From Pleurocapsaceae cyanobacterium CSU_1_1 (GTDB lineage Bacteria > Cyanobacteriota > Cyanobacteriia > Cyanobacteriales > Xenococcaceae): 41,271 nt of DNA. The stretch is from assembly GCA_012034765.1 (NCBI GenBank), contig JAAUOU010000034.1:1-41271 (forward strand), read 5' to 3'. The translations under genes and the position numbers were made by a program. Positions 16,318 to 38,916 of the stretch are shown here, one piece after another. Below the pieces are notes generated by a model. That model ran no database searches. It was given only the letters and a program-made list of their open reading frames with translations, and was not told where the DNA came from. Position 1 is the first letter of the stretch. Each line of letters opens with the position of its first letter.

Positions 16318-17484
16318 TTAAAAAATGTCAGCAGGATCAGCATCTTGTAATTTCTTAACTGCGGTTGCTCCCGCGATCGCACACATCAAGACAGTAGCAA
16401 CTAAAACAAATCCTGAACGGTTAAGAGTCATTGCAACTGGTAATAATGTGGCTTTTTCAATGACTTCATACTGGATTATCGAAATTAAAAGACCAGGAAT
16501 ATATCCCAAGACGGCAATTAAAAATGCTTGTTGTAATACTATTGTCAAAAGATATTGATTTTTATATCCAATAGCTTTTAAAGTTGCATACTCAGGGAGA
16601 TGTTCAGAAACATTAGTATAAAGAATTTGATAAACAACCACAATTCCTACAACAATTCCTAAAAAAACTCCCAAATTAAAAATAAAGCCGATCGCGGTAC
16701 TACTTTGCCAATAAGATTTTTCAAAATTCATGAATTCTTCTTTAGTAAAAACAATTACATCTTCAGGTAAATATTTTTTTAATTTAGCTCCAAAATTTTG
16801 AAAATCAGATCCTTCTTTTAGTCCAATCAAGCCAATATTAATAAAACCTTTTTCTTGACTATCAACAATTCGCAAAAAATTAAGATGACTGGTTACTAAA
16901 TTACCATCAAAACCAAAAGATGTACCCAATTCAAATAAACCTACTACTTCAATTTTCCTAGTAGAATCACCATTTCTAACTTCGGTAACAACTGTACTAT
17001 TTTCTTCAAACTTGTCAACGATGGGACCAAATTCTTCTCTACCAAAGCGATCAAATAAAACGGTGTTAGATTTTTTGAGGAGGTTAATATTTTCCTCAAC
17101 TCCAGGTAAATTCAAAATATTTCTGCGTAAATCAATCCCAATTATATTTAAATTGCGCCAGTAACTTCTATTTTCTGGATTTCTCCATTGAGCAAAAGCT
17201 TGATAAACTGGTGCAACGTACTCAACTTCCTCAAATGCTAATGCTTGAGATAAGCGACGTTCAGGGAAAGTTTCCATAGCTATAGAAGAAGTAGAGCTAG
17301 GACTAATCATAAAATAGTCTGCTGTTAATCCTTGATGTAAACGAATAGTACTATCAAATAGAGCATCACGAATACCCAGTTGCACAAACACAATGACAAC
17401 TGCAAAAACCACTCCAGATAAAGCTACAATTAAGCGAACTTTTTGATATTTAAGTTGTAACCATGCGGTCGGTAATTTTTGCAT
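16318..17484 (-). CDS. devC-like: DevC-family ABC exporter permease
   Basis: 388 aa with the MacB/FtsX permease layout. There is one membrane helix near residues 17-40 (LIVALSGVVFAVVIVFVQLG), a large extracytoplasmic domain (~45-260), and three more helices (~265-385), the last ending in GATAVKKLQDADPADIF. The GGxxP-like stretch LSQALAFEEVEYVAPVYQAF and the sequence EYATLKAIGYKNQYL between helices are typical of DevC proteins. It forms the membrane channel partner of the DevA ATPase, 14 bp downstream, and of the receiver-fused adaptor encoded 141 bp upstream. No frame problem is seen. Confidence 0.9.
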   Translation of the reverse strand: MQKLPTAWLQLKYQKVRLIVALSGVVFAVVIVFVQLGIRDALFDSTIRLHQGLTADYFMISPSSTSSIAMETFPERRLSQALAFEEVEYVAPVYQAFAQWRNPENRSYWRNLNIIGIDLRRNILNLPGVEENINLLKKSNTVLFDRFGREEFGPIVDKFEENSTVVTEVRNGDSTRKIEVVGLFELGTSFGFDGNLVTSHLNFLRIVDSQEKGFINIGLIGLKEGSDFQNFGAKLKKYLPEDVIVFTKEEFMNFEKSYWQSSTAIGFIFNLGVFLGIVVGIVVVYQILYTNVSEHLPEYATLKAIGYKNQYLLTIVLQQAFLIAVLGYIPGLLISIIQYEVIEKATLLPVAMTLNRSGFVLVATVLMCAIAGATAVKKLQDADPADIF

Positions 17485-19677: not shown

Positions 19678-20351
19678 CTAAATTAATAATCTTGGAGAGC
19701 GATACATAAAATCAGACAAAATAGTAAATGCTAGAAAAACTATGGCTCCTGTTATAGTAACTGAGATTGTCAGAGGTATAAATAAAACAGAACTTACGAG
19801 ATTAATCAATATTAGAAAAACCAAAGTCCTAACAATTATTTCTTTATTTAAATAACTACAGATTATTGCCCCTAACGGTGCGCCAATAACTACTACTGGA
19901 ACAGTGGCTAACCAATAATCAATAACTGGAGTAACGAAATCACCAATGAGTAACTTATGAACTAAAAATTCTACCAACGAATTAAATGTCATCAAAACAA
20001 TTAAGGTAGCAGAACTAATTTTTTCACAAATATTGAATAACAGAATCATGGCAGCAAAAATTAAAATCTCCATACCACTGCCAACTAAGCCACTAATTAT
20101 CCCCACCACAAAACCAATAATTAAAAAAAGAATTTTTTGCCAAATGTTTTGATTAATAATGTTGTAACTACAATTGTTATGATTTTTATTCGAAAACAAA
20201 AAAACCAGAGTAAAACTACTAATCATCATCGAAAAGAAATCTTGATAATATTTGCTGGTATTATAGGGCTTAAATAAACAGCACTAATAATACCAGGGAT
20301 TCCTCCTATAGTCATCCAAAAAACTAATTGCCATTCTAGTTTTATTTTCAT
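19678..20351 (-). pseudogene. TauE/SafE-family permease, N-truncated and frameshifted
   Basis: Two frames form the last three quarters of a TauE/SafE sulfite/anion permease. 20351-20226 encodes IGGIPGIISAVYLSPIIPAN, the end of the first helical module. 20229-19678 (183 codons) encodes the second module (FLIIGFVVGIISGLVGSGME, VIGAPLGAIICSYLN). Adding one T to the T4 run (plus-strand A4 at 20232-20235) joins them. The first two membrane helices, including the first glycine-rich motif, are missing because the ATG at 20351 is preceded by an in-frame stop four codons upstream. Even with the frame repaired the protein would be about 225 aa instead of 250-300, so I call it degenerate. It lies between the flavoenzyme terminator and the exporter genes. 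Confidence 0.7.
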
Positions 20352-20388
20352 ATTGTTTAATTATTTATGAGCTATTTTTTTAAAGTAT

Positions 20389-20426
20389 AGGATTGTCTAA
20401 TCAAAGAAATTATTTTAGACAATCCT
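20389..20426 (-). terminator. 12-bp-stem hairpin ending the polyketide operon
   Basis: AGGATTGTCTAA (20389-20400) pairs perfectly with TTAGACAATCCT (20415-20426) around a 14-base loop. It lies 40 bp after the stop of the last flavoenzyme gene. The following minus-strand sequence is T-poor at first (ATACTTT), so termination may be inefficient, but the position suits the end of the biosynthetic transcript. Confidence 0.55.
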
Positions 20427-20466
20427 ATTTTCAACGTGATCAATAGTCCACAATTTAAACTATTAA

Positions 20467-22271
20467 TTATTCAGTCCAAGGTTGTATTTTAGATTGATAT
20501 CGATAGCTCTCAAATTCTGTTCTCATCTTTTCAATAGTGCTATTGTTAGACACCTTACGAGTCTTGAATAGAAAAATTTGTTCGGCGATCGCATTAGTAA
20601 TAGATCTCTTCAAAATGCGTCCCACTCTAATAAAAGTTAAAGGAGATAAAAGCCCTAAGATACCAAAGCCTTTATATCTTAATTTGAGGTAATAAGCAGC
20701 TACATAAAAATAGGTCAGCTTCAACATTGCAAATATATTGAAACGCCCAGGTTCAAATCTTGTGTTATACAAACCATTATCAAAACTGAGAGATTTTTGA
20801 GGACCAAAGTCAAAAATAAGTTGATCTGCTCGCGTATAATCCATCAACCCAATATTAGCATCACGTTTTACTAATGTTTCAAATTGCTGATAGAAATCAT
20901 CAAAAAGATTATATTTTTCATTGAAGAATAAATAATCTGCGGATTTAGTAAAAACTTCAATGAACTGAAGATTTAAAAACCATTTGCCAAGATACATGGG
21001 AATAATAACGCCAAACCAAAACATATTTTCCATGTAAATGCGCCAACTCATGATACTGGCATGACCAAGCTGAGTTTCGTGTTTTTGATAGATACGTGAA
21101 TATCTCGATTGATATTGAACCAAAAATTTGTTGTACAGACGTTGTTTTTGTTTGGCATCTGCTTCCCCTGCTAACTTAGCTTTAATTGCAGCTGTAAAAC
21201 TTTCAATACCAACGCAAGTTAAAACCAACCCAGGAGAGTAAAATGGGTCAAACATAGCAGCAGCATCACCCAAGACATACCAATTATCCTCAGAAATAAT
21301 TTTTTGCTCATATGAGCTAATCTCGGTAGATAATTAAAGTCAACTAAGTCTCCTCCCTCAATAAGCTCTGCTAGAAGAGAATGATTAGCTTTTAAAAAGG
21401 ACTTTACTTTTTCAACGGTGTTAATGTCTTTGGATGGAATAACGTTTTTGTGGTGGGTAATACCAATCGATAATTCTCTTTCTTCTGTGTTGATAGGAAG
21501 CATCCAAAGCCAGTGTCCCTTGCCAAACCAATGATGAGTAGTATAGTAGCGACTAGCTCCTCTAAGAGAGGGGTCATATCCTTGATCAAAAATTTTCGGG
21601 TCAATATTTTTGACTCTCAACCAAGCAGCACCAGTATTGAGTCCACCAAGCTTATCGGTATCAAAATCAAAAATTAAATTGTCTGTTTTTTTGCCAATCA
21701 GGAAGCGACGACCTGCGCCATCAATCAAATTTTTAGCTTGCAAGGCAATTTTTGAATCACCTAGTTTGATATGAACTGTATGTAGTTCATCCTCAGCAGT
21801 CAAGTCTAAATCTACAACTCGACCATTGTAGAAAGTAGCTCCCATCTCTTGATTCATTTTGAGAATGTCACGCTCGAATTTGGCTCGATTGAGGTGAAAA
21901 CTTTCGATAGTAGGTGAACCATTAACCCAAATATGATGGTAATCATCAATGGTTTGAGTATCGCTAGAATCTTTTGGCCAATGAAAAGTTAAACCATACT
22001 TGGGAGAATGATTTTCAATTAAATATTCTGAAAGACCAAGCTCTTTAATGAGAAACATTGCGGTAATTTCGACTAAAGATTCCCCTACTTTGAGATCTTT
22101 ACCGTCCCTTTCTGGAGAACGCGGATCGATAATAGCAACCTTAATCCCAGGTATATTAAGCATTAGGTGTCTAGCTTGACAGTTACCTGCAAAACCTGCA
22201 CCCATAATAACGACATCGTATACTTCTAATTCAGTTAATTCAGTAGCAACTTTTGCTTCAGTGATAGTCAT
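20467..22271 (-). CDS. FAD-dependent halogenase-like oxidoreductase 1 (frameshifted)
   Basis: Two overlapping frames, 22271-21219 and 21273-20467, join into a protein of about 601 aa when one A is added to the A6 run at 21300-21305 (plus-strand T6). The repaired sequence (SKKIISEDNWYVLGDAAAMF) then follows the neighbouring paralogue residue by residue. It has a Rossmann FAD site (VVIMGAGFAGNCQARH), the motif KVGES common in flavin-dependent halogenases, DGAGRRFL, and WLWMLP, close to the halogenase WxWxIP signature. GDAAAMFDPFYSPG is the second FAD-binding motif. I use the ATG at 22271 (MTITEAKV), preceded by AAAGGA, not the longer frame. Possible roles are halogenation or oxidation of the polyketide, or a desaturase/reductase of the geranylgeranyl-reductase type. 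If the frameshift is real the enzyme is dead. Confidence 0.8.
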
Positions 22272-22373
22272 TTTGTTTCCTTTTGTTGTCTGTTTGTTAT
22301 GTGTCGTAGATAAAATAGATAATGCAGTTTGGCACAATCAAATTCTTGCCTGGTTTTTGACCTAAACTTTTAC

Positions 22374-24137
22374 TTATGACCGCCAAGGTTGGAGAGCAGC
22401 TTGGTATTTGTACTGCTTGAAATCATTTCGGGTTTTCTTAACAGCACTATTGCTGGCAAGTCTACGAGTTTTGTAAAGATAGATGCGTTCGCCAATAGCA
22501 TTATAAAAAGACAACCATAATATTTGGATAATCCGCCAAATACTACTGGGAGCGAGAACGCCCAAAATTCCAAAGGCTGTAAATCTTAGTTTGAGGTAAA
22601 AAAGTGCCATAAAGAAATAAGTTCCCTTAATTCCTGCAAAAACATTGCACCGTAATGGCTCATATTTGGCATTGGCTAAAAAGTTATCGAACAGTTTACT
22701 AGCACTATGACCCCACAATAATTGGTCTTGACGGTCATAATCCATCAAGCCAATATTTTTTCCTTGCTCAATAACACGGTCTAACTGATTGTAAAAATCA
22801 TTTAAGAGACCATTTTTGTTGAAGAAGATAAAATCAGCTCTGGCGATAAAAGGTTTGAGAAACCGAAAATCAAGAAACCATTTACCTGCATACATGGGAA
22901 CAATAATGCCAAACCAGAACATATTTTCCATGTAAATACGCCAACTCATGACACTGGCATTGCCTAAATGTCGATCATGTCTCTGATAAAGAGTTGTATA
23001 TCTTCTTTGATATTGAGTTAAAAACTCGTTGTACATTCGTTGTTTCTCTTCCGCATCCGCTTCATTAGCTAACTTGGCACGAATTGTTTCAGTAACCGTT
23101 TCAATTGCCATACAGGTTAATGCCAAACCAGGAGAATAAAGTGGGTCAAACATATAACCAGCATCTCCGAGAATATACCAGTTATCTGGAGAGATTAGTT
23201 CTTTGCTGATGTGAGCTAGTCTTGGTAAGTAATGGACATCTACTATTTCTCCACTTTCGATTAGTTCATACAACACATGATGATTAGCTTTTAAAAAAGC
23301 TTTTAACTTATCCAGGGTGTTGATATCCTGACTGGGTATAACATTTTTATGATGAACCATGCCAATAGATATTTCTTTATTTTCAATGTCCATAGGAAAC
23401 ATCCACAGCCAATGACCATGACCAAACCAATGATTAGTGGTATATAAACGACTAGCACCTCTAGTTTGAAAATCGTGTCCATCATCGAAAATTTTTAGTT
23501 CGGCATTTTTGACTCGCAACCATACTGAACCAGTATCGATACCGCATAAAGCTTCAGGATCAAAGGTTAAATTATCAGTTTTTTTGCCGAGTAAAAACCG
23601 TCGTCCTGCTCCGTCTATCAAGTGTTTTGCCTTTAACTCAATTTTGGAGTCATTAACTTTAACTGAAACAGTGTGTAATTCGTCATTTGGTGCTAATTCA
23701 ATATCTGTAGCGCGACCGTTGAAGAATGTCGCCCCCATTTCTTGATTCATTTTCAATAAATCGCGTTCTAACTTAGGGCGATTGAGCTGAAAACTATCAA
23801 TAGAAGGAGTACGATTGACCCAAATATTGTAGTAATCTTCGGTAGTTGCGGTTTGAGCCAAATTTTTAGGCCAATGAAAACTGAGTCCGTATTTGGGAAC
23901 GTGATTTTCTAATAAATAGTCTTGAAGTCCTAGTTCTCTGGCAAGAAACATCGCTGTGATTTCTACCGTAGATTCCCCAACTTTTTGATCTTTAACTGAT
24001 CTTTCAATGGGTCTAGGGTCAATAATGGCAATTTTGAGCTGGGGCATTTTGAGCAAGAGATGCCTTGCTTGACAATTACCTGCAAAACCTGCGCCCATAA
24101 TAACGACATCGAAAACTTGCTCTTCAGTAGCTAACAC
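22374..24137 (-). CDS. FAD-dependent halogenase-like oxidoreductase 2
   Basis: 587 aa, intact. FAD-binding GAGFAG is at residues 15-20, KVGEST at 52-57, DGAGRRFLLG near 175, WLWMFP at 243-248 and GDAGYMFDPLYSPG at 325-338. The C-terminal ~200 residues carry hydrophobic stretches (MFWFGIIVPMYAGKWF, YFFMALFYLKLRF) that may touch the membrane, as expected for an enzyme acting on a lipidic polyene. It starts at GTG 24137 with AAGGAG eight bases upstream. It is a close tandem paralogue of the downstream enzyme. The Trp-halogenase/lycopene-cyclase superfamily is clear; whether it halogenates, hydroxylates or desaturates cannot be told from sequence. Its place directly after the PKS and DUF1702 genes suggests tailoring. 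Confidence 0.85.
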   Translation of the reverse strand: MLATEEQVFDVVIMGAGFAGNCQARHLLLKMPQLKIAIIDPRPIERSVKDQKVGESTVEITAMFLARELGLQDYLLENHVPKYGLSFHWPKNLAQTATTEDYYNIWVNRTPSIDSFQLNRPKLERDLLKMNQEMGATFFNGRATDIELAPNDELHTVSVKVNDSKIELKAKHLIDGAGRRFLLGKKTDNLTFDPEALCGIDTGSVWLRVKNAELKIFDDGHDFQTRGASRLYTTNHWFGHGHWLWMFPMDIENKEISIGMVHHKNVIPSQDINTLDKLKAFLKANHHVLYELIESGEIVDVHYLPRLAHISKELISPDNWYILGDAGYMFDPLYSPGLALTCMAIETVTETIRAKLANEADAEEKQRMYNEFLTQYQRRYTTLYQRHDRHLGNASVMSWRIYMENMFWFGIIVPMYAGKWFLDFRFLKPFIARADFIFFNKNGLLNDFYNQLDRVIEQGKNIGLMDYDRQDQLLWGHSASKLFDNFLANAKYEPLRCNVFAGIKGTYFFMALFYLKLRFTAFGILGVLAPSSIWRIIQILWLSFYNAIGERIYLYKTRRLASNSAVKKTRNDFKQYKYQAALQPWRS

Positions 24138-24280
24138 TAATATTGCTCCTTAACTGATTTAGGGTTGAGAAGGGAGAAGGTCGTCAACCGTTTCCCTCCT
24201 TCTGCGATAACAATTTGCGGTTTTTTCGGCTCTTTAATCCTTATTCCCTGGTGAAACCGTAATTGTTCGTTTGAAGTCAT
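24137..24280 (-). CDS. Possible 47-aa ORF coupled to flavoenzyme 2
   Basis: An ATG at 24280 opens 47 codons (MTSNEQLRFHQGIRIKEPKK, tail KSVKEQY) whose TAG shares its last G with the GTG start of the flavoenzyme gene. The flavoenzyme ribosome-binding site lies inside it. An imperfect GAAGGGAG/CTCCCTTC-type hairpin overlaps its middle. It may be a leader peptide or a chance frame; no homologue is known to me. Confidence 0.25.
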   Translation of the reverse strand: MTSNEQLRFHQGIRIKEPKKPQIVIAEGGKRLTTFSLLNPKSVKEQY

Positions 24281-24293
24281 CAATTTCCAGGGG

Positions 24294-25271
24294 TTAAACT
24301 TGAGAAGTAACAGCAACTTTGACAAAATGAGAACGTACATTTTCACGCATTGTTTCAAATACTGGTTGCTTCACGTTCAGTGATTCGTTGGGATCGATAT
24401 TCAGGTCTTCAATAGTCTTGACTACGATTTCTGCTACTTGTGAAGCGGTCATTCTACAAAGAACAGAACAAGCAACATTAGTGTGGTAAACAATATTACC
24501 AGCCGTATAACGACATTTGGCAGCCATAGCCGAACCCAAAGCTACATAAGAAACATAATCGCCTGCTAATTCTTTCAACTTGACAAGAGTATCTCGCTCT
24601 ACTCCCCCAGCAAAGGTACTAGCAAGACCAACCCCGCTCCAAAGGTCTGCTTGACGAGATTCGGGAAATTTGGCGATCGCCTCAAAGATAATTTCTGGCT
24701 CACCACTAAGAGCAAACCACATTCTTCTGCCTAAGCCACGGTCAAAAGCTCGAAGTGCATAACCTTTAACTTGTGCGGGAACTATTTGTTGCTCTACAGA
24801 ATCTTCCCATTTATAAATACCAGTGAAAAAACCAAAACCGTCAGGAATCCACCATCTTTGCAGAGGTTCAATTTGAGGCAATTTTTGTTCTAGGTCTTTT
24901 TTCAAAGCTGCGGTGGCACAACCAACACCTACATAAATAAGCTCTGGATATTTAGCTCCTTGACCTTGTAGAAAAGTGGCAACTAAATTTTTCTGGCGAG
25001 CATAGTCACTAACAGCCAAACCCATACCAGCACCTTCGTAACCAAATCCCCGACAGTTATCATTTAAACCTTCTAATTGACCAACCAGAAGCTCAGATAG
25101 AGATACCTCCAAAGCTGTGTTGAAGCCAGTGATAAAAGCAATTACAGGGGATCTAAGTTGCTGTCTAGTAGCAGTCTCAACGCTGGGAACATTTTTCCAA
25201 GTATTTTCGATATTGATTAAAGGTAAACCAAAAACGAAACGACGTATTTTTCCCCAGTTAATTTTGATCAT
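24294..25271 (-). CDS. DUF1702-like protein of enediyne-type clusters
   Basis: 325 aa starting at ATG 25271 with AAGGAG before it. It opens with RRFVFGLPLINIENTWKNV and has the Gly/Phe-rich blocks FITGFNTALEVS, RGFGYEGAGMGLAVSDYA, WIPDGFGFFTGIY, YALRAFDRGLGRRMWF and DLWSGVGLASTFAGG. This is the pattern I associate with the DUF1702 family, found in enediyne gene cassettes and other iterative-PKS loci. The function is not established; it has no known cofactor motif. The gene lies 39 bp after the PPTase/hot-dog gene, in one operon with the PKS. Assignment is by remembered family features, not by a search. Confidence 0.7.
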   Translation of the reverse strand: MIKINWGKIRRFVFGLPLINIENTWKNVPSVETATRQQLRSPVIAFITGFNTALEVSLSELLVGQLEGLNDNCRGFGYEGAGMGLAVSDYARQKNLVATFLQGQGAKYPELIYVGVGCATAALKKDLEQKLPQIEPLQRWWIPDGFGFFTGIYKWEDSVEQQIVPAQVKGYALRAFDRGLGRRMWFALSGEPEIIFEAIAKFPESRQADLWSGVGLASTFAGGVERDTLVKLKELAGDYVSYVALGSAMAAKCRYTAGNIVYHTNVACSVLCRMTASQVAEIVVKTIEDLNIDPNESLNVKQPVFETMRENVRSHFVKVAVTSQV

Positions 25272-25310
25272 TTATTTTCTCCTTAAATTTAATTGATGTT
25301 GATTGATTTA

Positions 25311-26915
25311 CTAAATGTTTTTAAGTAGAGCTGTTCTAACTTTTGATGGCATGGATGCAGAAATTGACTTGCCATTGTCATCTGGGACAAACCAGATAGC
25401 ATCCTGTTTACCCACGGCTAGTTTTTCTTTTACACCATTAGGACAAGAGCGAAAATACTCAAAAACTAAACTGACAGAACTTTCATATAAAGCTTGCAGA
25501 TACATTTTGACTTCAATGCAATCAAAGGGAAATGCTTCCCGTAAAAAGTCAACTTTACTGTGCAGACAACGAAATTCTCCTTGTTTTAAATCCCGTCGAT
25601 AATATTCAGGAATTATTTCTTGGAAAAAGCCATCTCGTAGCCTTCCTTGAAAGATGTAGTAGTTCTGAAAATTAATATTGCCGATGGCATCAGTTTCTTC
25701 TAGACAAGTAGAAAAACTTTGTTCTCTAAGCAACAAACCAGCACTAGGGCCAAAGGGAATTTCATAAAGCTTTTCGCCTTTAGAAATATCTTCAAAAGAC
25801 TCTGGGAAAGATTCTGGTGTGTAGTTAGAAATTTGACCGATAAACTCCTGCATAAATTCTGGTAGTGGCAAAGGCTGAGGGGGTGCATTTTTGGTTAATT
25901 TGACCCAAGTCATTTGCAATTTACCAACAGCAACTCGCTCCTGATTTCCGTTGGGCAATACTTTCAACCAGTCATAATTAAAATCAACTGTGGAATTGCT
26001 GCTAACAGAAGCATTGCTGACTCCAATTCTAGATTCGATCACATCATCTAGTCCTGCCTCACCTACTACCTCTACTTCAGCGAAGTTAGTCACCATACCC
26101 CATTCTCCTGTGGCCAAATGCTCTCCTAAAGTCTCGCGAATTGGTAGTAAAGCTAAATCTCGCACCTGTTCTATCCAAGCAAAAAAGTTGGAAAAATAGA
26201 CAGTTTGACTTAAATTAGCCACGTTTTTATAGGATACAGGCCAACGTACATAGAAAAAGCAACTGCTGGTTTTTTCCTCTGTACCGAAACAATAGATATT
26301 TGCTGGGTATTCTAGATAATTATCGGCTGGGTTGGAAATTATTTGTTGTGCTTTGGAGTCGGGAATTACTAAGGCAACAATCCTGGGTTTTCCTCTCGTT
26401 AATTGAAGAGGAAAAGTTAACACACATAATTCTTTTCCTGAAGCAGAACCACGAAAAACAATACTGTCTTGATCTTGTCGGTCTAATATTAACTTGAAAT
26501 TAGTCAATTCAGTCGCTTTGCGAACTGCCTCAATTGCTGCCCAAATTCTAGTACCTGCAAAATCTAAAGTATCAGAACATTGAGTTGTTAATTGTTCTAA
26601 TAAAGATTTTCGAGAATTACCCAGCAAAGCAAGCCAATCATCGCGATCGCGACTATCTACACAAGCAATATCGCAACCTTGAGAGCCAATTCCGGCGGCA
26701 CAAAGACAAAGGCGATCATCATGGGCAAGGGAAATTTCTACTGTTTTACTGGTGTTATTTAATCCTGTAATTACGGGTTTACCTGATTTAAGCCATTGAA
26801 TTTGCGCTTCAGGCTCGTTAGTCAGATTTAGATTTTTGACTGCTCCAGATTGTTTGGTTACATCTTTAGAGGAATCAGATTTGATTTGAGTTGTTGTTGC
26901 TAATGTTTGAACCAT
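25311..26915 (-). CDS. Phosphopantetheinyl transferase fused to two hot-dog (TE-like) domains
   Basis: 534 aa. Residues ~55-190 resemble the C-terminal PPTase of enediyne PKSs: EISLAHDD, GCDIACVD with D82, and FAGTRIWAAIEAVRKA with E129, the usual metal- and substrate-binding acids. This would load pantetheine arms on the neighbouring ACPs. Two hot-dog domains follow. The first (~230-345) has VYFSNFFAWIEQVRD; the second (~395-530) has NINFQNYYIFQGRLRDGFF, very like the N-YY-WQG-RE signature of the DynE7/CalE7 thioesterases that release polyenes. In enediyne clusters the PPTase is the last PKS domain and the thioesterase a separate gene, so this is a regrouping. The start at ATG 26915 has AGGAG nine bases upstream. 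The stop is 39 bp before the DUF1702 gene. Confidence 0.8.
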   Translation of the reverse strand: MVQTLATTTQIKSDSSKDVTKQSGAVKNLNLTNEPEAQIQWLKSGKPVITGLNNTSKTVEISLAHDDRLCLCAAGIGSQGCDIACVDSRDRDDWLALLGNSRKSLLEQLTTQCSDTLDFAGTRIWAAIEAVRKATELTNFKLILDRQDQDSIVFRGSASGKELCVLTFPLQLTRGKPRIVALVIPDSKAQQIISNPADNYLEYPANIYCFGTEEKTSSCFFYVRWPVSYKNVANLSQTVYFSNFFAWIEQVRDLALLPIRETLGEHLATGEWGMVTNFAEVEVVGEAGLDDVIESRIGVSNASVSSNSTVDFNYDWLKVLPNGNQERVAVGKLQMTWVKLTKNAPPQPLPLPEFMQEFIGQISNYTPESFPESFEDISKGEKLYEIPFGPSAGLLLREQSFSTCLEETDAIGNINFQNYYIFQGRLRDGFFQEIIPEYYRRDLKQGEFRCLHSKVDFLREAFPFDCIEVKMYLQALYESSVSLVFEYFRSCPNGVKEKLAVGKQDAIWFVPDDNGKSISASMPSKVRTALLKNI

Positions 26916-26993
26916 ATATCAAAACTCCTGAAATTTTCAATTTTTCTGACGATGCGATCGCTAAACTTGGCTGAGAAATTCACCATAGACTGG

Positions 26994-29900
26994 TCATTCT
27001 AGGTTGCGCATCAGCTTATCTACTGTTTGGGAAAATAATGGCATCTCTAATTTATGCCTTTCCTCAACTGAAAGATGATGTAAACCTGGAAGATGAGCCA
27101 TTGTTACTTGAGGAGGAACTATTCCTAAAGTCTCAGCACGTTGATTTAACTCCTGATACAAAAGTTGCTGATCGCGAAGTTCAGGATTTACTAGCTCTTC
27201 GGCAGTAGGATTATCTGCACAATGTTCCATAATTTTGAGTTGATATCCTGTCAGTTTTTCGATTACTTGACCACGATGATTAATTGCCATCACCGTAGTG
27301 GTATATTGATCATTTTCTTTTTTATCATTGAGGGCGATGCCGACATAGTTTTTGGTTGTCTCTGGAGTAAGATGAATTTCAATGCTTTGAATACCGAGGG
27401 GTAAACATAAATCCTTAGCCACCATTGGCTGCACAGAATGCAATAGAGAATCTCGATAGTAAGGGTCTCCTAATAAAAATGGTCCAGAAGCGCGATCTTC
27501 AAAATTGTTGCTCAAAAAGTCTTTTTGCTCTGTGAGGAAAACCATTTTTTGAGAGTCTAGACTATAAATTTCTTGAATTCGTTGGAATTTAACTCCTTGG
27601 AAGAGTAACCATCCATAAAGATCTTCTTGGGGTTTTATATCTAAAGCAATTAAAGGTTGAGGAATTTCATAATTTGTTGGTTCAATTGCCGTTTCTAAGA
27701 TAAAATCAGCAGCAAAATGGGCTTTAGTAAATCCAGTGCTTTCAGTTCTAATTTCTACGTAAACTTTTAAAGGTGCTGATTCAGTAATTCGCTCGGCAAC
27801 TTCTGCCTGAATTTCAATATCTGTACCATTTTCTGAATGTACTACAATAGGTCGTACCAAACGGATATTTTCTAAACGCAGAGAACTAAAACTATCTATT
27901 CCTAGAGTATAAGCAACGGTTTGAGCCATCGCTTCTAAACCAAACACAGTGGGAAATAGATAAGAGCCTTTGTAAATATGGTCTTGAACGTAAGAATCTT
28001 TAGCTAAAGTAAGATGGGTTCTGGCAATAGTTTCTACCCCAGGCTCGTTCATCAAAATTTGCTCTAAGAATCTTAAATTCTTAGCTGGAGGGACTTGAGG
28101 CGGTAGCCAAGTATCAAAATTGTGCTGGAGAGATATTCGACCATCGATTCTGGCTGCAATAACAACTTGAGCATTACCAGGATCTTGTTCCATTAGTTGA
28201 ACGAAGCGATCTATACCTTCGGCGCGAGATATTGCCCCAATTCCCATTTTGGCAAGACCACTAACTGCACCCATTTTAGCTCCCATGCCTACTTCTGACC
28301 AAACACTATAGGCAATGGAAATAATTGCTGTGTCAGGATGTTGCTGTTTATAGTCTCGTAAAATTAAATCTAAAGCTTCATTGGAAAAGCTATACCAAGT
28401 ATTGCCAGGTAGACCAACTATTGCACCTATGGAAGAGAATCCAGCAAAAAGTTTGAGAGATGTCGCTTGAAAAATTTGAGCCAGATTAATTGCACCCATG
28501 ATTTTGGGTTTAACTTCGGCGATCGCATCTTCAATGGTGGAATTATTGACTGGTTTAGCTCGGTTAATAGCTGCTCCATGAATTACGCCAGTAACTGTTC
28601 CCATTTCTGCTTGAATAACTTCAACTAAGCTAGTCAAAGCATCTTGGTCAGCAACATTACACTGATAATAATTACAAGTTAAATCTTCTGCTTGAAAACG
28701 GTTTAAGGTTTGAGTAATTTCTGCGCTACTTTTACCAGTGGGGTTTGCTTGGGGATGAGCAGAACTACCTACTAAGGCAAGACTTACTCCTGTTTGTTTT
28801 GCCCAAGCTAAGGTACATTCTGCTGTAATCCCTTTCGCTCCTCCTGTAACTAAAATGACATCTGCTTTAGACCAGGAAATATTACGGTTTTGATAGCTAG
28901 TTCGATCTTGAAGACAAGGACGAGGAATGCGCCGAGTCAGCTCATCATCAAAGCCTACAGCTAAGTAAGCATCAGGACGAGCTATTTCTGCTATTACTGA
29001 TTCAAACAATAAATTTGATTGATTCTGAGAGGGTAGATCAATTACTCGAACTTGAAGATCGGGTCTTTCTAAGTGAAGACTGGCAGCAAAACCAACGGTG
29101 CAATTAGTATCAATAGTGCCGAGCTGTTTTTCTTTGCCAAAATAACCATCTCCAAATTGAAGATAACTAATACTAGTCAGATCGCGATCGCTCCCCGCTA
29201 TTTTGGATAGATCTCGTTTTACAGGGAATGTTGCCACTGTGCGCAGTTGACCCATCGCGTTTTCTAGGCGATCTATAGCAGTAAGATCTGGTTCACTCTG
29301 AGAGGGGAGAATGGCAATTATATGGGTATAGTTATCAGCAGGTAATTCTGCAAGTTGTCTAAAATCAACAATCTTTACTTGTGCGGCTTTGTATTTAAGT
29401 TTCTTGCTTAAAGATTTAGCCCAGGCTTTATTTTGAGGATTTGCTACAATCAATACCTCTTTATTTGTCCAATCATTAACTGACAATTTAGCTTTGGAAG
29501 GGTTACTCGATTCGACCAAACTGTCAACTGGTTCTGCAATATATTCGACAACGAAATTACGCACCCAGGGATTGGGGATCTTTTGAGATGTAGTATTAAG
29601 AGTTTGACTAACGGAAGTAGAAGAGGGGAAAGTTTTAGTTTCTCGAAGCTGTTGTAGAGCGTTTATTACTTCGCTCAAAGTTGCGTTAGCAAATAAGGAA
29701 GGATCGATTTGCCCTTCTAAGTCAATTTTTTTAGCTGTTTGAGCAACAACTTCGGCTGATTTAATCGAGTCTAGGTTGAGATCGTCTAATAATTTAGCAT
29801 CTAAGGTAATACTTTCGAGAGGATATCCAGTTTGCTCAATAATTAAATCGAGCAAAATCTTTTCTACAGACTTCGTAACAGAAGAGAAAACTTCAGGGCC

Positions 29901-30419
29901 TTGGATTTGTTGTAGAGCGTTTATTACTTCGCTCAAAGTTGCATTGGCAAATAAGGAAGGATCGATTTGTCCTTCTAAGCTAATTTGTTTGGCTGCTTGA
30001 GCAACAACTTCGGCTGATTTAATCGAGTCTAGGTTGAGATCGTCTAATAATTTAGCATCTAAGGTAATACTTTCGAGAGGATATCCAGTTTGCTCAATAA
30101 TTAAATCGAGCAAAATCTTTTCTATAGATCTCGTAGAAGAGAGCTTTTCTGAATGGTTGCGATCTTCTGCTGCAACATTTTGCTCTATGACGCTAACTTG
30201 AACCGATTCTTGATTAGAAGTATCAAGAGCAAGTTGGATTTGATGAGAATCAAGCTTTCGTGCATGATTAACTATAGCTGGTTGATGATCTAGCTTGGGA
30301 GTGAGAGGATAATTTTTAAAGTCAGCTTTAATAACTTTAGCTAAGAATTCTCCTCGTTGAGAAAAGTAATTTGAGAGCAAATTAACTAGCTCTTGATTAT
30401 TATTTGGAGATTTATTCAT
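26994..30419 (-). CDS. Iterative PKS subunit: ACP-ACP-KR-DH
   Basis: 1141 aa. The N-terminus (LLSNYFSQRGEFLAKVIKAD) repeats the linker that ends the preceding KS-AT protein. Two almost identical carrier domains follow (~98-173 and ~184-258), each with the pantetheine-bearing DDLNLDSIKS motif (S132 and S218). A ketoreductase comes next (~515-745; NADPH loop VTGGAKGITAE, catalytic SSIGAIVGLPGNTWYSFSNEA). A hot-dog dehydratase ends the protein (~800-1080; DHIYKGSYLFPTVFGLEAMA). There is no enoyl reductase, so each cycle should leave a double bond. This is the second half of an enediyne/PUFA-type synthase, which is normally one chain. The start overlaps the KS-AT stop by eight bases (ATGAATAA), so translation is coupled. 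It needs the KS-AT protein and the PPTase encoded on either side. Confidence 0.9.
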   Translation of the reverse strand: MNKSPNNNQELVNLLSNYFSQRGEFLAKVIKADFKNYPLTPKLDHQPAIVNHARKLDSHQIQLALDTSNQESVQVSVIEQNVAAEDRNHSEKLSSTRSIEKILLDLIIEQTGYPLESITLDAKLLDDLNLDSIKSAEVVAQAAKQISLEGQIDPSLFANATLSEVINALQQIQGPEVFSSVTKSVEKILLDLIIEQTGYPLESITLDAKLLDDLNLDSIKSAEVVAQTAKKIDLEGQIDPSLFANATLSEVINALQQLRETKTFPSSTSVSQTLNTTSQKIPNPWVRNFVVEYIAEPVDSLVESSNPSKAKLSVNDWTNKEVLIVANPQNKAWAKSLSKKLKYKAAQVKIVDFRQLAELPADNYTHIIAILPSQSEPDLTAIDRLENAMGQLRTVATFPVKRDLSKIAGSDRDLTSISYLQFGDGYFGKEKQLGTIDTNCTVGFAASLHLERPDLQVRVIDLPSQNQSNLLFESVIAEIARPDAYLAVGFDDELTRRIPRPCLQDRTSYQNRNISWSKADVILVTGGAKGITAECTLAWAKQTGVSLALVGSSAHPQANPTGKSSAEITQTLNRFQAEDLTCNYYQCNVADQDALTSLVEVIQAEMGTVTGVIHGAAINRAKPVNNSTIEDAIAEVKPKIMGAINLAQIFQATSLKLFAGFSSIGAIVGLPGNTWYSFSNEALDLILRDYKQQHPDTAIISIAYSVWSEVGMGAKMGAVSGLAKMGIGAISRAEGIDRFVQLMEQDPGNAQVVIAARIDGRISLQHNFDTWLPPQVPPAKNLRFLEQILMNEPGVETIARTHLTLAKDSYVQDHIYKGSYLFPTVFGLEAMAQTVAYTLGIDSFSSLRLENIRLVRPIVVHSENGTDIEIQAEVAERITESAPLKVYVEIRTESTGFTKAHFAADFILETAIEPTNYEIPQPLIALDIKPQEDLYGWLLFQGVKFQRIQEIYSLDSQKMVFLTEQKDFLSNNFEDRASGPFLLGDPYYRDSLLHSVQPMVAKDLCLPLGIQSIEIHLTPETTKNYVGIALNDKKENDQYTTTVMAINHRGQVIEKLTGYQLKIMEHCADNPTAEELVNPELRDQQLLYQELNQRAETLGIVPPQVTMAHLPGLHHLSVEERHKLEMPLFSQTVDKLMRNLE
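29646..30128. repeat. 258-bp-period direct duplication of the ACP coding unit
   Basis: 29646-29870 and 29901-30128 encode the two carrier domains with only a handful of differences, and the DNA is nearly identical, including synonymous sites. The duplication is recent or maintained by gene conversion. It is a natural spot for copy-number change by recombination. Confidence 0.85.
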
Positions 30420-33400
30420 GGCTTTCTAGATTGCTCATCGAAATTGAGGGTAAAGTTGGTAAAGTTTCTAAGTCTACTTGGATAATATCTGCTAGAAAAG
30501 TTCCCCGTTTGTCAAAGTATTCTGTTAAAGCAGCCACAAAATCTGGTTCTGATTCGGGTGCGTGTTTTGGGGAGATTCGAGTTACTAATTCTGCTTTATT
30601 GACTTCAAAAGGTTTTTCACATTGATTTTCGATAAAGTTCTGGTCAGATGGTGTCACAAAAGGACGAATTAGGCGATTTTCATAGAGCGCGTCCCAATTA
30701 ATCGAGCCACTACGGACATAAAAATTGGCTAAAACAGTGTTCAAATCGCGATCGCATCCTGCTTGTGATTCGATCGGGAAACAGGTAAGATTTTTGGGGT
30801 CTATGGTTGCGTTGACTAATCCTGAAAGAACTCTTCCTGAACCAACTTCAATTAGTAAGTCACATTCATTAGATACTGATTCTACTAAGGAAATAAAATC
30901 GACCGCCGAAACTACTTGTTTGGCAAAATGTTCTTTTAAGTTAATGCCGGCTTTTATTGGTTGACCATCCATACTAGAGAATAGAGGAATGGAGGGGGTT
31001 TTTAGGGTTTCTGGTAATTGGGCTTGTTCTTTTAAAAAGGTGGCTGCTGCTGACATTTTTGTAGAATGAAAAGCATTAGAAACTTGTAGTTGACGGGTTT
31101 GAATGTTTTGCTGTTGAGCTTTAACTATTACCTGTTGAACACTGCTTAAATCGCCAGAAACAACAGTCTGTTCAGGACTATTAATGTTGGCAATCACTAG
31201 ATAACCAGGGACTTTCTTAAGTAATTCTTGGGCTTGATGGTAATCACAAGCTAGACTCACCATTCCTCCAGGAGTCTCATCTTGACTAAGCATCGCCTTA
31301 CCTCTGATGGCAGCTAAACACAGTAATGTGCGATCGTCAAAAGCAGATGCAGACTGAAAGGCAGTCAGCTCTCCTAAACTATGACCAGCAACCACATTTG
31401 GCTTAATTCCCAATCGGTCTAAATAACGTTGCCACAATAAAGAACAGAAGCAAATAATGGGAGAAGCAATTTCAGCACTAGTCATTTGCTGCTTCCAGTC
31501 GTTTAGTTGTTCTGGGTTTTCGGCTTTTTCCAGTATGTGAGTAAGATGATTGCTAATACTAGAAAATCCCATTTCCGTTAGCCAATGATCAGCTTGTTGT
31601 AGAAATTCTCTAGCCCAGTCATATCTTTCTATTAAAACGCGAGTGGCATTAAGTCTTTGAGAACCTTGACCAGGAAACAAAAAGCCCACTCGACAGTTAG
31701 TTGCGTTATTACTTACCCAAATGTCTTGATTTAAGGCCGTAAAAACTTCTCCCCCAGCTGGCGGTGTATCTTGGAGAATTTGTTGCAGCTTAGTTAACTT
31801 ATCAACTAAGTTTTGCGGTGTATCGGCGACTACAGCTGCGCGGATTCCCTCCGAAAATTTGATTTCGCTGGTTAATTGAACTGCCAGATCAGCCATTTCC
31901 GCTAAACTAATATCTACAACTATCGATTGCCAATGTTCAATTTTGTCGATTAAATTCTCTAGCGAATCTCCGCTAAAGATAAATAATTCAGTCTCTTGAT
32001 GAGAAACTAATAACGCTCTGGTATCTATAGAGGGATGAAGATTTTCTGCTGGAGGATCTCCTGATTCTAGAGTGACATGAGAATTAATTCCGCCGAATCC
32101 CATTGCCGAAACTCCTGCACGCAGAACATCAGTTACAGGGCGTATTTCGCCAGATAATACAGGATAAAGACTTTTAGCTGTCGTTTCAAAAACAGCATTC
32201 AATTCTTGACAGCCAGCAGTCGGCGGAATTACTCTTTGATTAACTGCTATTAACGCTTTGATGAAACCACCAATACCAGCAGCAGCTTTAGTATGACCAA
32301 CTAAAGACTTAAATGAGGTCACTCCGACAGAGCGAGGTGGGACTTCGCCTTCAATAGAGATCGCCCTACTAATACCTTCTAGTTCAATGCGATCGCCTAC
32401 AGGAGTGCCTGTACCATGACCTTCAACAAAGTCTAATTGGTGAATATTGTAACTAGCTTTCTCATAAGCACGACCTAAAGCTTTAGATTGCCCCACACTA
32501 GAAGGTGCAGTAATGCCTCCTTTCCCATCGGAGGAAATACCCCAGCCTTGAATAATGCCATAGACATAATCACCAGCTTGGCGAGCATCTTCTAATCTTT
32601 TAAGAGTAACAAAACCACATCCTTCACCAGGAATAAAACCGTTCGCACGACGGTCATATACTTTCATTGCCGATGGACTTAAGGCACCAACTTTAGCAAA
32701 TCCAATCAACTCAAAAGTATCTAGACTAATATCTACTCCTCCAGCTAATGCCATGTCAAGATCGCCATTAGCCAGCTTTGTGCAAGCGGTATTAATCGCA
32801 ATCAAAGAAGAAGAACAAGCTCCATCCACAACATAGCCACCACCATCAAAATCGAAAAAGTTACAAATCCTACCCGCAATAGTGTTAGATAAATTTCCAG
32901 CAAGAGTATCTTCATTAATTGAAGCAAATACCGACTTATAATACTTTTCCATCGTCGTTATTAATTCTTCTGTGGTAGAAGTCGCTAAATTATTAGTTTT
33001 AGCAGCAGCCCTCAAAGCTTTTCTTACATAAGGCCATCTTAATCTGATCGATTGAGCGCGGACTTGCTCTCCTGTTAGAGTATTACCAAGAATCACCCCC
33101 GTACGTTTAGTGGGAACATTGTGACGATTATAATTAGCATTTTCTAGAGCTTTAATAGCTACTTCTAAAGATAACCAATGAACAATATCTGTAGTTTCAT
33201 ACGCTTTTTTGGGAACTCGTCTTTTGATCCAATCAAATTCAAATCCATCTATAAAAGCAGCTTGACTACCATAGGTTTTATCTGGGGCTTTTGGGTCTGG
33301 ATCGTAATATTCAGACATTGGTAATCTAATATCAGGAAATCTTCTAAATTGTCGTCTTCGAGATAAAATGTTTTCCCACAGTTTTTTACTCGTATTGGCA

Positions 33401-33474
33401 CCAGGATAATAACAATCTGTTCCCACTACAGCAATTGGGTGATTGGGTAATTGTCGTTCAATATTCTTGATCAT
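30412..33474 (-). CDS. Iterative PKS subunit: ketosynthase-acyltransferase of enediyne type
   Basis: 1020 aa. The ketosynthase (~10-480) has the catalytic triad C220 in DGACSSSL, H353 in EGHGTGTPVG and H394 in VGHTKAAAG. Its N-terminal block (RRRQFRRFPDIRLPMSEYYD, APDKTYGSQAAFIDGFEFD, TTDIVHWLSLEVA) is diagnostic for enediyne PKSs rather than modular ones. The acyltransferase (~595-890) has FLFPGQGSQ and S699 in GHSLGE. The last residues (ALTEYFDKRGTFLADIIQVD) form the linker that in one-chain synthases leads into the ACP, and the next gene begins with a copy of it. The protein condenses malonyl units iteratively with the ACP-KR-DH subunit. The ATG at 33474 lies 47 bp after the small membrane gene; no strong ribosome-binding site is seen. 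The family is sure; the product is not. Confidence 0.92.
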   Translation of the reverse strand: MIKNIERQLPNHPIAVVGTDCYYPGANTSKKLWENILSRRRQFRRFPDIRLPMSEYYDPDPKAPDKTYGSQAAFIDGFEFDWIKRRVPKKAYETTDIVHWLSLEVAIKALENANYNRHNVPTKRTGVILGNTLTGEQVRAQSIRLRWPYVRKALRAAAKTNNLATSTTEELITTMEKYYKSVFASINEDTLAGNLSNTIAGRICNFFDFDGGGYVVDGACSSSLIAINTACTKLANGDLDMALAGGVDISLDTFELIGFAKVGALSPSAMKVYDRRANGFIPGEGCGFVTLKRLEDARQAGDYVYGIIQGWGISSDGKGGITAPSSVGQSKALGRAYEKASYNIHQLDFVEGHGTGTPVGDRIELEGISRAISIEGEVPPRSVGVTSFKSLVGHTKAAAGIGGFIKALIAVNQRVIPPTAGCQELNAVFETTAKSLYPVLSGEIRPVTDVLRAGVSAMGFGGINSHVTLESGDPPAENLHPSIDTRALLVSHQETELFIFSGDSLENLIDKIEHWQSIVVDISLAEMADLAVQLTSEIKFSEGIRAAVVADTPQNLVDKLTKLQQILQDTPPAGGEVFTALNQDIWVSNNATNCRVGFLFPGQGSQRLNATRVLIERYDWAREFLQQADHWLTEMGFSSISNHLTHILEKAENPEQLNDWKQQMTSAEIASPIICFCSLLWQRYLDRLGIKPNVVAGHSLGELTAFQSASAFDDRTLLCLAAIRGKAMLSQDETPGGMVSLACDYHQAQELLKKVPGYLVIANINSPEQTVVSGDLSSVQQVIVKAQQQNIQTRQLQVSNAFHSTKMSAAATFLKEQAQLPETLKTPSIPLFSSMDGQPIKAGINLKEHFAKQVVSAVDFISLVESVSNECDLLIEVGSGRVLSGLVNATIDPKNLTCFPIESQAGCDRDLNTVLANFYVRSGSINWDALYENRLIRPFVTPSDQNFIENQCEKPFEVNKAELVTRISPKHAPESEPDFVAALTEYFDKRGTFLADIIQVDLETLPTLPSISMSNLESHE

Positions 33475-33521
33475 TTTTGATTTATTGCTACTTAAAAATT
33501 AAAAATCTTCCTAGTGATAAC

Positions 33522-33692
33522 TTACTTTAGATAACCACATAAAATGAAACCTAAGATGTAGCCAATTGGCATAGTAAGGCTATGAGGAACACCAACAGTA
33601 CGAAATACACATCCACCAACAAATCCAGTCGTAAAAGCAAACAAAAGTTTAATACTAATAATCAACATATGTTCTTTTTTAAGGTATTTCAT
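33522..33692 (-). CDS. 56-aa membrane protein coupled to the desaturase
   Basis: ATG 33692 overlaps the desaturase stop as ATGA, and the frame ends at TAA 33522-33524. The product has a short basic N-terminus (MKYLKKEH) and two membrane helices (LIISIKLLFAFTTGFVGGCV and LTMPIGYILGFILCGYL) joined by FRTVGVPHS. The pattern is like small XapX/DUF1427-type membrane proteins, though I am not sure of the family. Tight coupling on one side and the KS-AT gene 47 bp further on the other make it a real member of the operon. It may help the desaturase or product handling at the membrane. Confidence 0.7.
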   Translation of the reverse strand: MKYLKKEHMLIISIKLLFAFTTGFVGGCVFRTVGVPHSLTMPIGYILGFILCGYLK

Positions 33693-34612
33693 TGAACATT
33701 ATGGTGAAATTTACAATCATTAGCTTCAATGCCAATTAACATATCTTTTAAAATACCTAGATAGTCCCAAAATGTAATATAAACTGAGCCGTCAGGCATC
33801 GAAAGGTTATCAGGTGCTGGTCTGGTATTAGATTGTGGAAAAGAGTGATGTAATGTATGTTCTAAGGGATCATCATGAGTAAAAATTAAAACAATTTTTT
33901 CGATAATTCCTGTTGATTTTAAATTGCGTGTTCTAATATTTCTTTGAGGCAATTTATCTTCGACAATTAAATTACCGTGTTCGATCAGCATACTGTGGTG
34001 AATTATTAATGATCCTCCCCAATAAGTTGATAAGTAGGGGATTAATATATCAGATGTTTTTATTCCAAAAATTAAATGAGAACAAAAACTGATTCCCACA
34101 ATAAAGGATATTCTACATAGCAGAAATACTAGAAACTTTTGATAGCTATACTGCTTTTTAAATCTTGGCTCTTTAGATAATCGAATACCGGCGATCGTCA
34201 TTACAAATATTGCTCCCAAAAAAATTTCAAAAAAATTGTAGATGATTCGTAAATATCTTTTCTTGATCTTACTCAAAGGATAAAACTGCATATCCTGATA
34301 TGAATTAACATCAGTATGATGACTACGATGAGTTAAATCATAAACTTGAGGATCAGAGATTAACATGAAGCAAAATATTGGAAACAAAATTTTGTTAGGA
34401 ACACTAGGTAAGTATTTATGCCAAGATTCATGAATTAAAAGTCCAAATAAAGGAAAAAGATAAAGCCCTGGAAAAACTATATAAAACAAACAAAGTATTT
34501 TTTGATTTGCATAAACCCAAGGCAAAGATACAAGATACAGTAACCAGGTCACTATTAATCCATATATTTTTAATTGCTCAATATGTTTTGCTTTTAATAA
34601 GGATTTGAACAT
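33689..34612 (-). CDS. Membrane di-iron fatty-acid-desaturase-like enzyme
   Basis: 307 aa with the three His boxes of the membrane desaturase/hydroxylase family: HESWH (61-65), HRSHH (95-99) and HTLHH (252-256). An extra His pair lies in HHSMLIEHGN (205-214). Four or more membrane helices surround them (LIVTWLLYLVSLPWVYA, LFYIVFPGLYLFPLFGLLI, ILFPIFCFMLIS, FFEIFLGAIFVMTIAGI). Such enzymes insert double or triple bonds, or hydroxyl or keto groups, into lipid chains. As first gene of the transcript that continues into the PKS it probably tailors the polyketide or its starter; this is inference. The start at ATG 34612 follows the shared 65-bp element by about 75 bp. Confidence 0.85.
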   Translation of the reverse strand: MFKSLLKAKHIEQLKIYGLIVTWLLYLVSLPWVYANQKILCLFYIVFPGLYLFPLFGLLIHESWHKYLPSVPNKILFPIFCFMLISDPQVYDLTHRSHHTDVNSYQDMQFYPLSKIKKRYLRIIYNFFEIFLGAIFVMTIAGIRLSKEPRFKKQYSYQKFLVFLLCRISFIVGISFCSHLIFGIKTSDILIPYLSTYWGGSLIIHHSMLIEHGNLIVEDKLPQRNIRTRNLKSTGIIEKIVLIFTHDDPLEHTLHHSFPQSNTRPAPDNLSMPDGSVYITFWDYLGILKDMLIGIEANDCKFHHNVQ

Positions 34613-38504: not shown

Positions 38505-38505
38505 A

Positions 38506-38915: not shown

Positions 38916-38916
38916 G

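Follow-up and report, generated by a model that had tools for sequence, protein, structure and literature searches.

What might a cyanobacterium make with an iterative polyketide synthase (PKS) of the enediyne family when UnbV and UnbU, encoded beside the synthase in enediyne loci such as that of C-1027, are missing? This question is raised by a DNA stretch of 41,271 nucleotides from Pleurocapsaceae cyanobacterium CSU_1_1 (assembly GCA_012034765.1, contig JAAUOU010000034.1, positions 1 to 41,271), which is called the window here. The host genome is a draft of 4.61 Mb with a completeness of 95.9%. The cluster occupies 15602-34612 with all its genes on the minus strand; read from 34612, their order is desaturase, ketosynthase-acyltransferase (KS-AT) protein, a protein with two acyl carrier proteins, a ketoreductase and a dehydratase (ACP-ACP-KR-DH), a protein with a phosphopantetheinyl transferase (PPTase)-like domain and a double hot-dog, a DUF1702 protein, flavoenzymes 1 and 2, a TauE-type protein, DevB, DevC and DevA. 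We propose that the cluster probably produces a polyene for secretion: an iterative PKS of the enediyne family would make the chain, flavoenzymes with a halogenase fold would tailor it and DevBCA would export it. An earlier reading of the sequence alone had confined the locus to 20467..34612; the genes are there, but the unit continues to DevBCA at 15602-19539. The nearest relative is L077, a locus from a metagenome-assembled genome (MAG) of the same family, titled 'uncultured Xenococcaceae cyanobacterium'. It has the desaturase, the three PKS genes, DUF1702, two flavoenzymes, TauE, DevC and DevA in the order of the window (61-83% identity) but differs in that the receiver-DevB gene is at the opposite side of the cluster, only one ACP is found by motif count and the second flavoenzyme is intact.

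Phylogeny and architecture of the synthase

The KS had been read as enediyne-type and not as modular or HglE-type. A maximum-likelihood tree of 83 rows agreed with this and placed the window KS in an enediyne-type clade of 60 rows (100/100). Apart from this clade stood 15 rows of PfaA/Hgl-type (100/95), labelled in eleven cases by TIGR02813 over cut-off (L114 and L128 are under the cut-off, L150 and L151 are unannotated plasmid loci), as well as six KSs labelled modular and two further ones labelled as of the polyunsaturated fatty acid (PUFA) type ('PUFA2'); all group labels were assigned by us. The enediyne-type clade adjoins the PfaA/Hgl-type KSs. Since the window PKS reached only 408 bits against TIGR02813 (cut-off 1010) and its KS was outside those groups, an assignment as HglE/PUFA or modular KS was rejected. 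Within the enediyne-type clade the window side comprised 54 rows (97/87) and the other side six PKSs with both UnbV and UnbU, namely those of C-1027, three further Streptomyces, Sinorhizobium meliloti T073 and a cyanobacterium (G078, locus L032). The six were joined at only 92/34 because the branch of S. meliloti is long; without it, support was 100/94. Part of this contrast results from selection, since five of the six rows came from a plasmid search, four of them chosen for being Streptomyces enediyne loci; window-type loci, in turn, are over-represented since the contig scan was queried with the window's own family. Twenty loci were left out of the tree (duplicates, fragments and additional KSs of PfaA/Hgl-type loci), as were, at an earlier step, rows with at most 380 KS positions; it therefore lacks the split-KS Dolichospermum-type loci L027, L031, L091 and L092 as well as fragments, L094 and L096-L099 among them.

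The locus is not a singular one: a KS-AT alignment scan of genome contigs gave 59 loci from cyanobacteria, Thermodesulfobacteriota, Nitrospirota, Myxococcota, Bdellovibrionota, Bacteroidota, Pseudomonadota and Bacillota. Thermoflavimicrobium stood among cyanobacteria, and the other Microcystis did not group with Microcystis LEGE 91341, which suggests horizontal transfer, the inner branches being moderately supported. Such KSs are not new as a kind. Enediyne KSs are described from cyanobacteria, Deltaproteobacteria and other phyla without such known compounds, distinct from the characterised ones (PMC10308959), and an enediyne KS clade in cyanobacteria stands beside PUFA KSs (PMC4247773); non-actinobacterial 'enediyne' KSs without known product thus cover cyanobacteria, Deltaproteobacteria and Firmicutes (PMC10308959, PMC4247773). 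An uncharacterised enediyne type I PKS is mentioned for Hormoscilla-type sponge symbionts (PMC6520454), and a lake bin is described with a PKS similar to one of Microcystis (PMC5826242). The published enediyne KSs were likened to the window clade by description.

The sequence-only reading had listed KS, AT, two ACPs, KR, DH, PPTase and hot-dog domains over three genes followed by DUF1702, and Pfam and alignments bore this out. PKS gene 1 (30412..33474, 1020 aa) carries the KS (~32041-33441, E 9e-57) and the AT (~30805-31683, E 2e-27); PKS gene 2 (26994..30419, 1141 aa) carries ACP1 (29913-30113), ACP2 (29655-29855), KR (28296-28859) and DH (27225-28034). The Cys-His-His of the KS, the Ser and His of the AT, the Ser of the ACPs and the motifs of KR and DH are present in alignment with SgcE, and these kept catalytic motifs suggest a functional PKS. 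The two ACPs are a tandem duplication of 258 bp (29617-30132) and are 90% identical; two Thermoflavimicrobium loci have three ACPs each by motif count. PKS gene 3 (25311..26915, 534 aa) begins with the PPTase-like domain (26346-26804), in which His is conserved in 52, Asp in 53, Trp in 54, Glu in 53 and Lys in 53 of 54 aligned rows (the genomes of L022/L045 and of L027/L091 are counted twice, here and in the thioesterase tally, and two spurious L148 frames were left out). Its Asp-x-Glu triad is Asp-Ala-Glu in the window; the middle residue is Glu in 32 and Ala in 11 of the 54 rows. According to PMC4103896, this middle residue is non-essential in group II PPTases. The domain is followed by two hot-dogs (25866-26303 and 25326-25709), of which the N-terminal one was assigned by alignment. 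Gene 3 has a 4HBT_2 hot-dog match in Pfam, and the C-terminal hot-dog matches CalE7/DynE7 with E-values from 6e-10 to 1e-7 (CalE7, 5.8e-10). At the positions aligned with Asn, Tyr and Arg of SgcE10, which we take to be the catalytic ones, the window has Asp (in 7 of 38 rows), Phe (18 of 38) and a kept Arg (21 of 38), SgcE10 itself being counted twice in this tally. No PKS-type enoylreductase (ER) was among the Pfam matches of the ten proteins from 19678 to 36600, nor was a methyltransferase domain seen in them.

The division of the PKS over three proteins, stressed in the sequence-only reading, is real but local. Among the 28 loci that are not cyanobacterial, 16 have a single open frame of 2,240-2,730 aa that spans KS through hot-dog region (it is end-cut in one of them); eight others are cut short at contig or locus ends and four (L066, L069, L071, L099) are in several frames, so that most complete relatives outside the cyanobacteria have the PKS in one piece. 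In cyanobacterial loci it is found in one, two, three or more genes, and the hot-dog is absent at the locus in L042, L051, L089 and the Nostoc/Fischerella type. Fission into three genes is a detail of one lineage within the PKS family, and the idea that it is the key novelty was rejected, as the pattern differs from lineage to lineage. In Dolichospermum-type loci of three genomes (L027/L091, L031, L092) even the KS is split into two frames near residue 246, soon after the region of the active-site cysteine. A gene similar to BioF/serine palmitoyltransferase lies between the ACP and the KR-DH parts in L044 (14064-15497, the copy identified), L031 (12768-14135) and L092 (13817-15184), which suggests that chain release in these lineages may be amino-acid-condensing.

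UnbV and UnbU

The proteins called CRTAC1/UnbV, RnfD-like/UnbU and thioesterase at the C-1027 locus correspond to E4, E5 and E10. The absence of the first two from the window had been noted before and extends to the host genome, where a search with the C-1027 proteins gave 0 matches at E <= 0.001. No UnbU and a single UnbV (L084, 29% identity) were found in the flanks of the 54 window-side loci, 33 of these loci reaching 5 kb or more beyond the KS gene in both directions; both were found at 6/6 loci of the other side. When 20 genomes or records were searched whole, UnbV was found in two, and nine had UnbU-like matches, all of them weak (19-46 bits, 24-31% identity); in the genome of the nearest relative (G386) the UnbU-like match was very weak (23 bits, 28%). 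The other arrangement also occurs in a cyanobacterium: in L032 an enediyne-type PKS, 47% identical to SgcE, is accompanied by UnbU (51%), UnbV (46%) and a stand-alone thioesterase (52%).

The comparison with C-1027 (SgcE; Streptomyces globisporus plasmid SGLP1, L039) summarises what is shared and what is not. Both loci have the order KS-AT-ACP-KR-DH-PPTase, the catalytic motifs, DUF1702 and a CalE7/DynE7-type thioesterase, with ~40% identity over KS-AT. Unlike C-1027, the window has three proteins instead of one, a thioesterase that is doubled and fused to the PPTase and no UnbV/UnbU, and halogenase-type flavoenzymes and DevBCA are added. Thus, the earlier statement that the usual enediyne accessory genes are lacking applies to UnbV and UnbU but not to DUF1702, which is part of the C-1027 locus, nor to the thioesterase, which is present in fused form. 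Neither a KS inside a modular or HglE-type group nor UnbU/UnbV genes restoring an enediyne cassette, the two outcomes named beforehand as speaking against the sequence-only reading, were found.

Flavoenzymes, DUF1702 and the DevBCA exporter

Flavoenzyme 1 (22374..24137, 587 aa) has the flavin-dependent-halogenase fold (PF04820, 40.2 bits, cut-off 21); it matches PltA with E 1e-13, and its fold matches include flavin-dependent halogenases. W-x-W-x-x-P is present in 32/32 flavoenzymes, with I at the fifth place in 25 and F in the window, and a lysine at the halogenase position is present in 29/32 (Lys82 in flavoenzyme 1), where it aligns with the lysine of PltA, CmlS, FasV and Mpy16. We take WxWxIP and this lysine to be the flavin-dependent halogenase motif and the catalytic lysine. 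None of the halogenase equivalogs of NCBIfam passed the cut-off for the window flavoenzyme, which is only 16-20% identical to PltA, PltM, CmlS and Bmp2 and has ~95 C-terminal residues beyond the part that most halogenase matches span (6-493 of 587), and the fold also fits hydroxylases. In sum, these features support the prediction that the flavoenzymes are halogenase-like tailoring enzymes. Flavoenzyme 2 (20467..22337) is a frameshifted paralogue in two open reading frames (21219-22337 and 20467-21273), the first of which also matches the Trp_halogenase family in Pfam. The two pieces align with residues 1-325 and 319-601 of the intact 602-aa copy at the same place in L077 with 84% and 78% identity. 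Since both have an equal low dN (nonsynonymous divergence) against L077 (0.125 and 0.129), the frame was either broken recently or misread in sequencing. The two flavoenzymes and the desaturase of the sequence-only reading are therefore all present, the flavoenzymes being halogenase-like, but the second is broken in frame.

The flavoenzymes are linked to the PKS. In a sample of 386 genomes of the phylum, the KS-AT query (E <= 1e-140) matched ten and the third PKS protein (E <= 1e-8) eleven, those ten included. Flavoenzymes (E <= 1e-50) were found in eight, in all of them beside the PKS (Fisher p 1.5e-14, ignoring the relatedness of the genomes), and two or three in tandem are linked to window-type PKSs. 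PKS genomes without a flavoenzyme are G149 (Dolichospermum sp. FACHB-1091) and G022, which have a CrtD-like dehydrogenase at the PKS locus, and the UnbV/UnbU-bearing G078. Over all 54 window-side loci a flavoenzyme was found at 26, the hot-dog at 28 and DUF1702 at eight; none of the three is universal on this side.

The DUF1702 protein (24294..25271, 325 aa; PF08012, E 4e-77, 260 bits, cut-off 25) belongs to a family that includes two genes of the C-1027 locus. It is predicted to be all-helical (model confidence, pLDDT, 84.3), and a fold search of the model against PDB gave no match at E <= 0.001. DUF1702 (E <= 1e-15) was found in seven genomes of the phylum sample, six with the PKS and one (G143) without. 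The latter, with its gene at L158, is a cyanobacterium without a PKS match at the threshold used. At the other end of the cluster lies a protein of the membrane di-iron desaturase/hydroxylase family (33689..34612, 307 aa; FA_desaturase PF00487, E 4e-11), which is beside the PKS at two of the 54 window-side loci only, the window and L077 (5178-6122, 67% identity).

The adjacent pump of the sequence-only reading turned out to be a DevBCA exporter. The models for DevB (17626..19539, 637 aa; TIGR02971, 293 bits, cut-off 129), DevC, an ABC permease (16318..17484; TIGR01185, 470 bits, cut-off 290), and DevA, an ABC ATPase (15602..16303; TIGR02982, 355 bits, cut-off 296), are all over cut-off in adjacent genes. 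DevC relatives with 64-79% identity are on the PKS contig in the host genome and in seven of 15 other genomes; the remaining eight have no relative at all, or their best one lies on another contig or far off or is more diverged. In L155 and L157 the DevB-DevC-DevA genes immediately follow the flavoenzymes, and in L156 they come after a further ~6 kb. The TauE/SafE-type membrane protein (19678..20229, 183 aa; PF01925, E 2e-14) recurs in the nearest relative, where flavoenzyme and DevC flank it, and is 61% identical in L154. The DevB protein, a membrane fusion protein, begins with a receiver domain (PF00072, residues 4-115), followed by a hydrophobic stretch and the adaptor part. Among the matches listed, full-length receiver-DevB fusions were found in at least four of 291 genomes of the order, all in the family of the window, and G070 has one without the PKS. 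According to PMC6161253, DevBCA together with HgdD (TolC) exports heterocyst glycolipids, and several DevBCA homologues are without assigned substrate. A DevBCA exporter is thus linked to the window-type PKS in several genomes, and it may transport the PKS product.

Known relatives of the whole arrangement are the loci of Gloeothece verrucosa PCC 7822 plasmid Cy782201 (L038; WP_013334445, WP_013334444 and three 'tryptophan 7-halogenases') and Microcystis (L045, L048-L050), with 58-62% identity over KS-AT and tandem flavoenzymes of 51-61%. Gloeothece, L045, L048 and L049 also have a DevC relative (64-67%) on the contig of the PKS. In contrast to the three proteins of the window, the PKS is one protein in Microcystis LEGE 91341 and two in Gloeothece, where a carotenoid oxygenase is added and the desaturase has no match. 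To our knowledge, no product of these loci has been described.

The product and its alternatives

From the domain content and the relatives, a linear polyene is a reasonable inference for the product. The KS-AT and ACP-KR-DH proteins would act in trans and extend acetate/malonate units iteratively, and cycles of KS, KR and DH in the absence of ER and methyltransferase would leave a conjugated polyene on the ACP, whose phosphopantetheine arm would be loaded by the PPTase-like domain of the third protein. The double hot-dog of this protein would then release the chain as a polyene acid or hydrocarbon. Conjugated polyenes are the products of CalE8 and its homologues, and their hydrolytic release falls to the thioesterase CalE7 (PMC3107222). 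The flavoenzymes, DUF1702 and, in the window lineage, the desaturase could oxidise or halogenate the polyene, and DevBCA, presumably with a TolC-like outer-membrane partner, could export the lipophilic product as it does heterocyst glycolipids. In this scheme the polyene itself, chain length, release mode, halogenation, the roles of DUF1702 and desaturase and the substrate of the exporter are all inferred. Homologues of carotenoid cleavage oxygenases adjoin the PKS in Gloeothece (L038, 29597-31015) and in the Nostoc/Fischerella-type loci L029, L030, L052 and L095, and a gene of the aldehyde dehydrogenase family is at six Nostoc/Fischerella-type loci (L028, L029, L030, L052, L054, L095; one representative identified); both are in keeping with a polyene as substrate. 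Ten genes or gene pieces were compared with L077: dN was 0.10-0.26 in all ten, and the synonymous divergence (dS) was >1.2, near saturation, in eight, not being computable for the desaturase and flavoenzyme 1. That dN is well below dS in these eight also counted for the secretory polyene cluster.

A canonical cluster making a cyclic enediyne, with E4 and E5 elsewhere or missed in the draft assembly, would fit the enediyne-type clade of the KS, DUF1702 and the DynE7-type thioesterase, and the 95.9% completeness of the genome and the 23-bit match in G386 leave some room for it. It is nevertheless highly improbable and was rejected, given the 0 matches in the host genome, the near-absence of both genes at the 54 window-side loci (UnbU 0/54, UnbV 1/54), the outcome of the 20 whole searches (UnbV in two, only weak UnbU-like matches in nine) and the position of the window KS apart from the six E4/E5-bearing PKSs (97/87). 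Enediyne routes with halogenated intermediates exist, and fischerellins have an acetylenic chain. The flavoenzymes could replace UnbV/UnbU, with halogenation and elimination leading to alkynes and to a secreted polyyne or linear enediyne, for which the fischerellins of Fischerella are a candidate. The two or three tandem halogenase-fold enzymes linked to the PKS, the lysine kept in 29/32 and the DUF1702 common to the window and C-1027 agree with this, as do the two PKS-family loci (L055, L087) of Fischerella muscicola SAG 1427-1 = PCC 73103, the species from which, according to a reference title in PMC4558948, fischerellin A is reportedly known. We consider this route doubtful, because the halogenase role is predicted from a fold that also suits hydroxylases, the loci of G149 and G022 have the CrtD-like dehydrogenase and no flavoenzyme match, and fischerellin is tied to no locus in this analysis; the parts of the literature consulted for F. 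muscicola name no fischerellin biosynthetic genes. As a tentative possibility, tandem flavoenzymes, at some loci with DUF1702, replace UnbV/UnbU as a second, independent cyanobacterial finish giving DevBCA-secreted halogenated polyenes or polyynes, the anaerobic and Gram-positive relatives being mostly core-only, often with one self-contained KS-AT-ACP-KR-DH-PPTase-thioesterase protein.

An envelope lipid, saturated or hydroxylated, from a PUFA- or heterocyst-glycolipid-like synthase is suggested by the DevBCA-type exporter and by the position of the enediyne-type clade next to the PfaA/Hgl-type KSs; HglE/PfaA heterocyst glycolipid synthases are likewise iterative type I PKSs with DevBCA in a cyanobacterium. 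The window differs from them in its KS clade, outside the PfaA/Hgl clade (100/95), in a TIGR02813 score far below cut-off (408 versus 1010), in the lack of a PKS-type ER and in its tailoring genes, and no glycosyltransferase was seen in the Pfam scan of the ten proteins from 19678 to 36600, which makes such a lipid very unlikely. That the cluster is decaying and without functional product is unlikely, too. The frameshift of flavoenzyme 2 and the duplicated ACP could be read in this way, G070, the only further genome of the genus among the 386 of the phylum, has no copy, and a Xenococcaceae MAG contains a KS fragment of 103 residues, 94% identical to the window KS (L096, 10001-10309), possibly a remnant of the same cluster. 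But the other reading frames are open, the gene order of the window is kept in L077, dN is low against dS in eight of the ten genes or pieces, and the equal low dN of the two flavoenzyme 2 pieces indicates a recent break or sequencing error.

The preferred reading, a secreted polyene, bears on how such loci are named. In KS-based surveys these genes are filed as 'enediyne', and those from outside the actinobacteria are suggested as potential enediyne sources. The class splits into two sides: one keeps UnbV/UnbU; on the other, that of the window, they are hardly ever close by, and its cyanobacterial members have tailoring enzymes and an exporter of their own, a reason to expect non-enediyne polyenes from 'enediyne' loci. 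Window-type loci are also a natural comparison for the role of DUF1702 without UnbV/UnbU, and the PKS product is a candidate second substrate class for DevBCA exporters. As far as the literature searched reaches, the kind is known by its KS, and the present analysis adds its subdivision by UnbV/UnbU, the linked flavoenzymes and exporter and the fusion of the thioesterase; no product for the window-type clade was found in the open literature searched, preprints and most subscription papers being outside it, and DUF1702 was named there in one paper.

Some further genes were seen around the PKS loci. A protein of ~110-130 aa is encoded near ten of them (L042, 11996-12391, and nine others); no window ORF belongs to this group, and the L042 copy, the single representative scanned, had no Pfam or NCBIfam match. 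As the neighbour clustering contains promiscuous groups and shadow frames, only groups with an identified representative were used. Rfam and tRNA scans of the window gave no matches. A CPA2 Na+/H+ antiporter (35179-36600, minus strand) is near the cluster; a 63% identical relative follows the exporter in L155, and a homologue is also in L041. Upstream of the cluster and on the same strand is a haem-oxygenase-like iron enzyme (37131-38096, minus strand; PF14518, just at cut-off). Near the contig end are a ribbon-helix-helix protein and a Tn3 transposase fragment (38172-40172), and AAA_35 proteins together with large proteins of WD40 repeats are encoded on both strands between 4256 and 14683.

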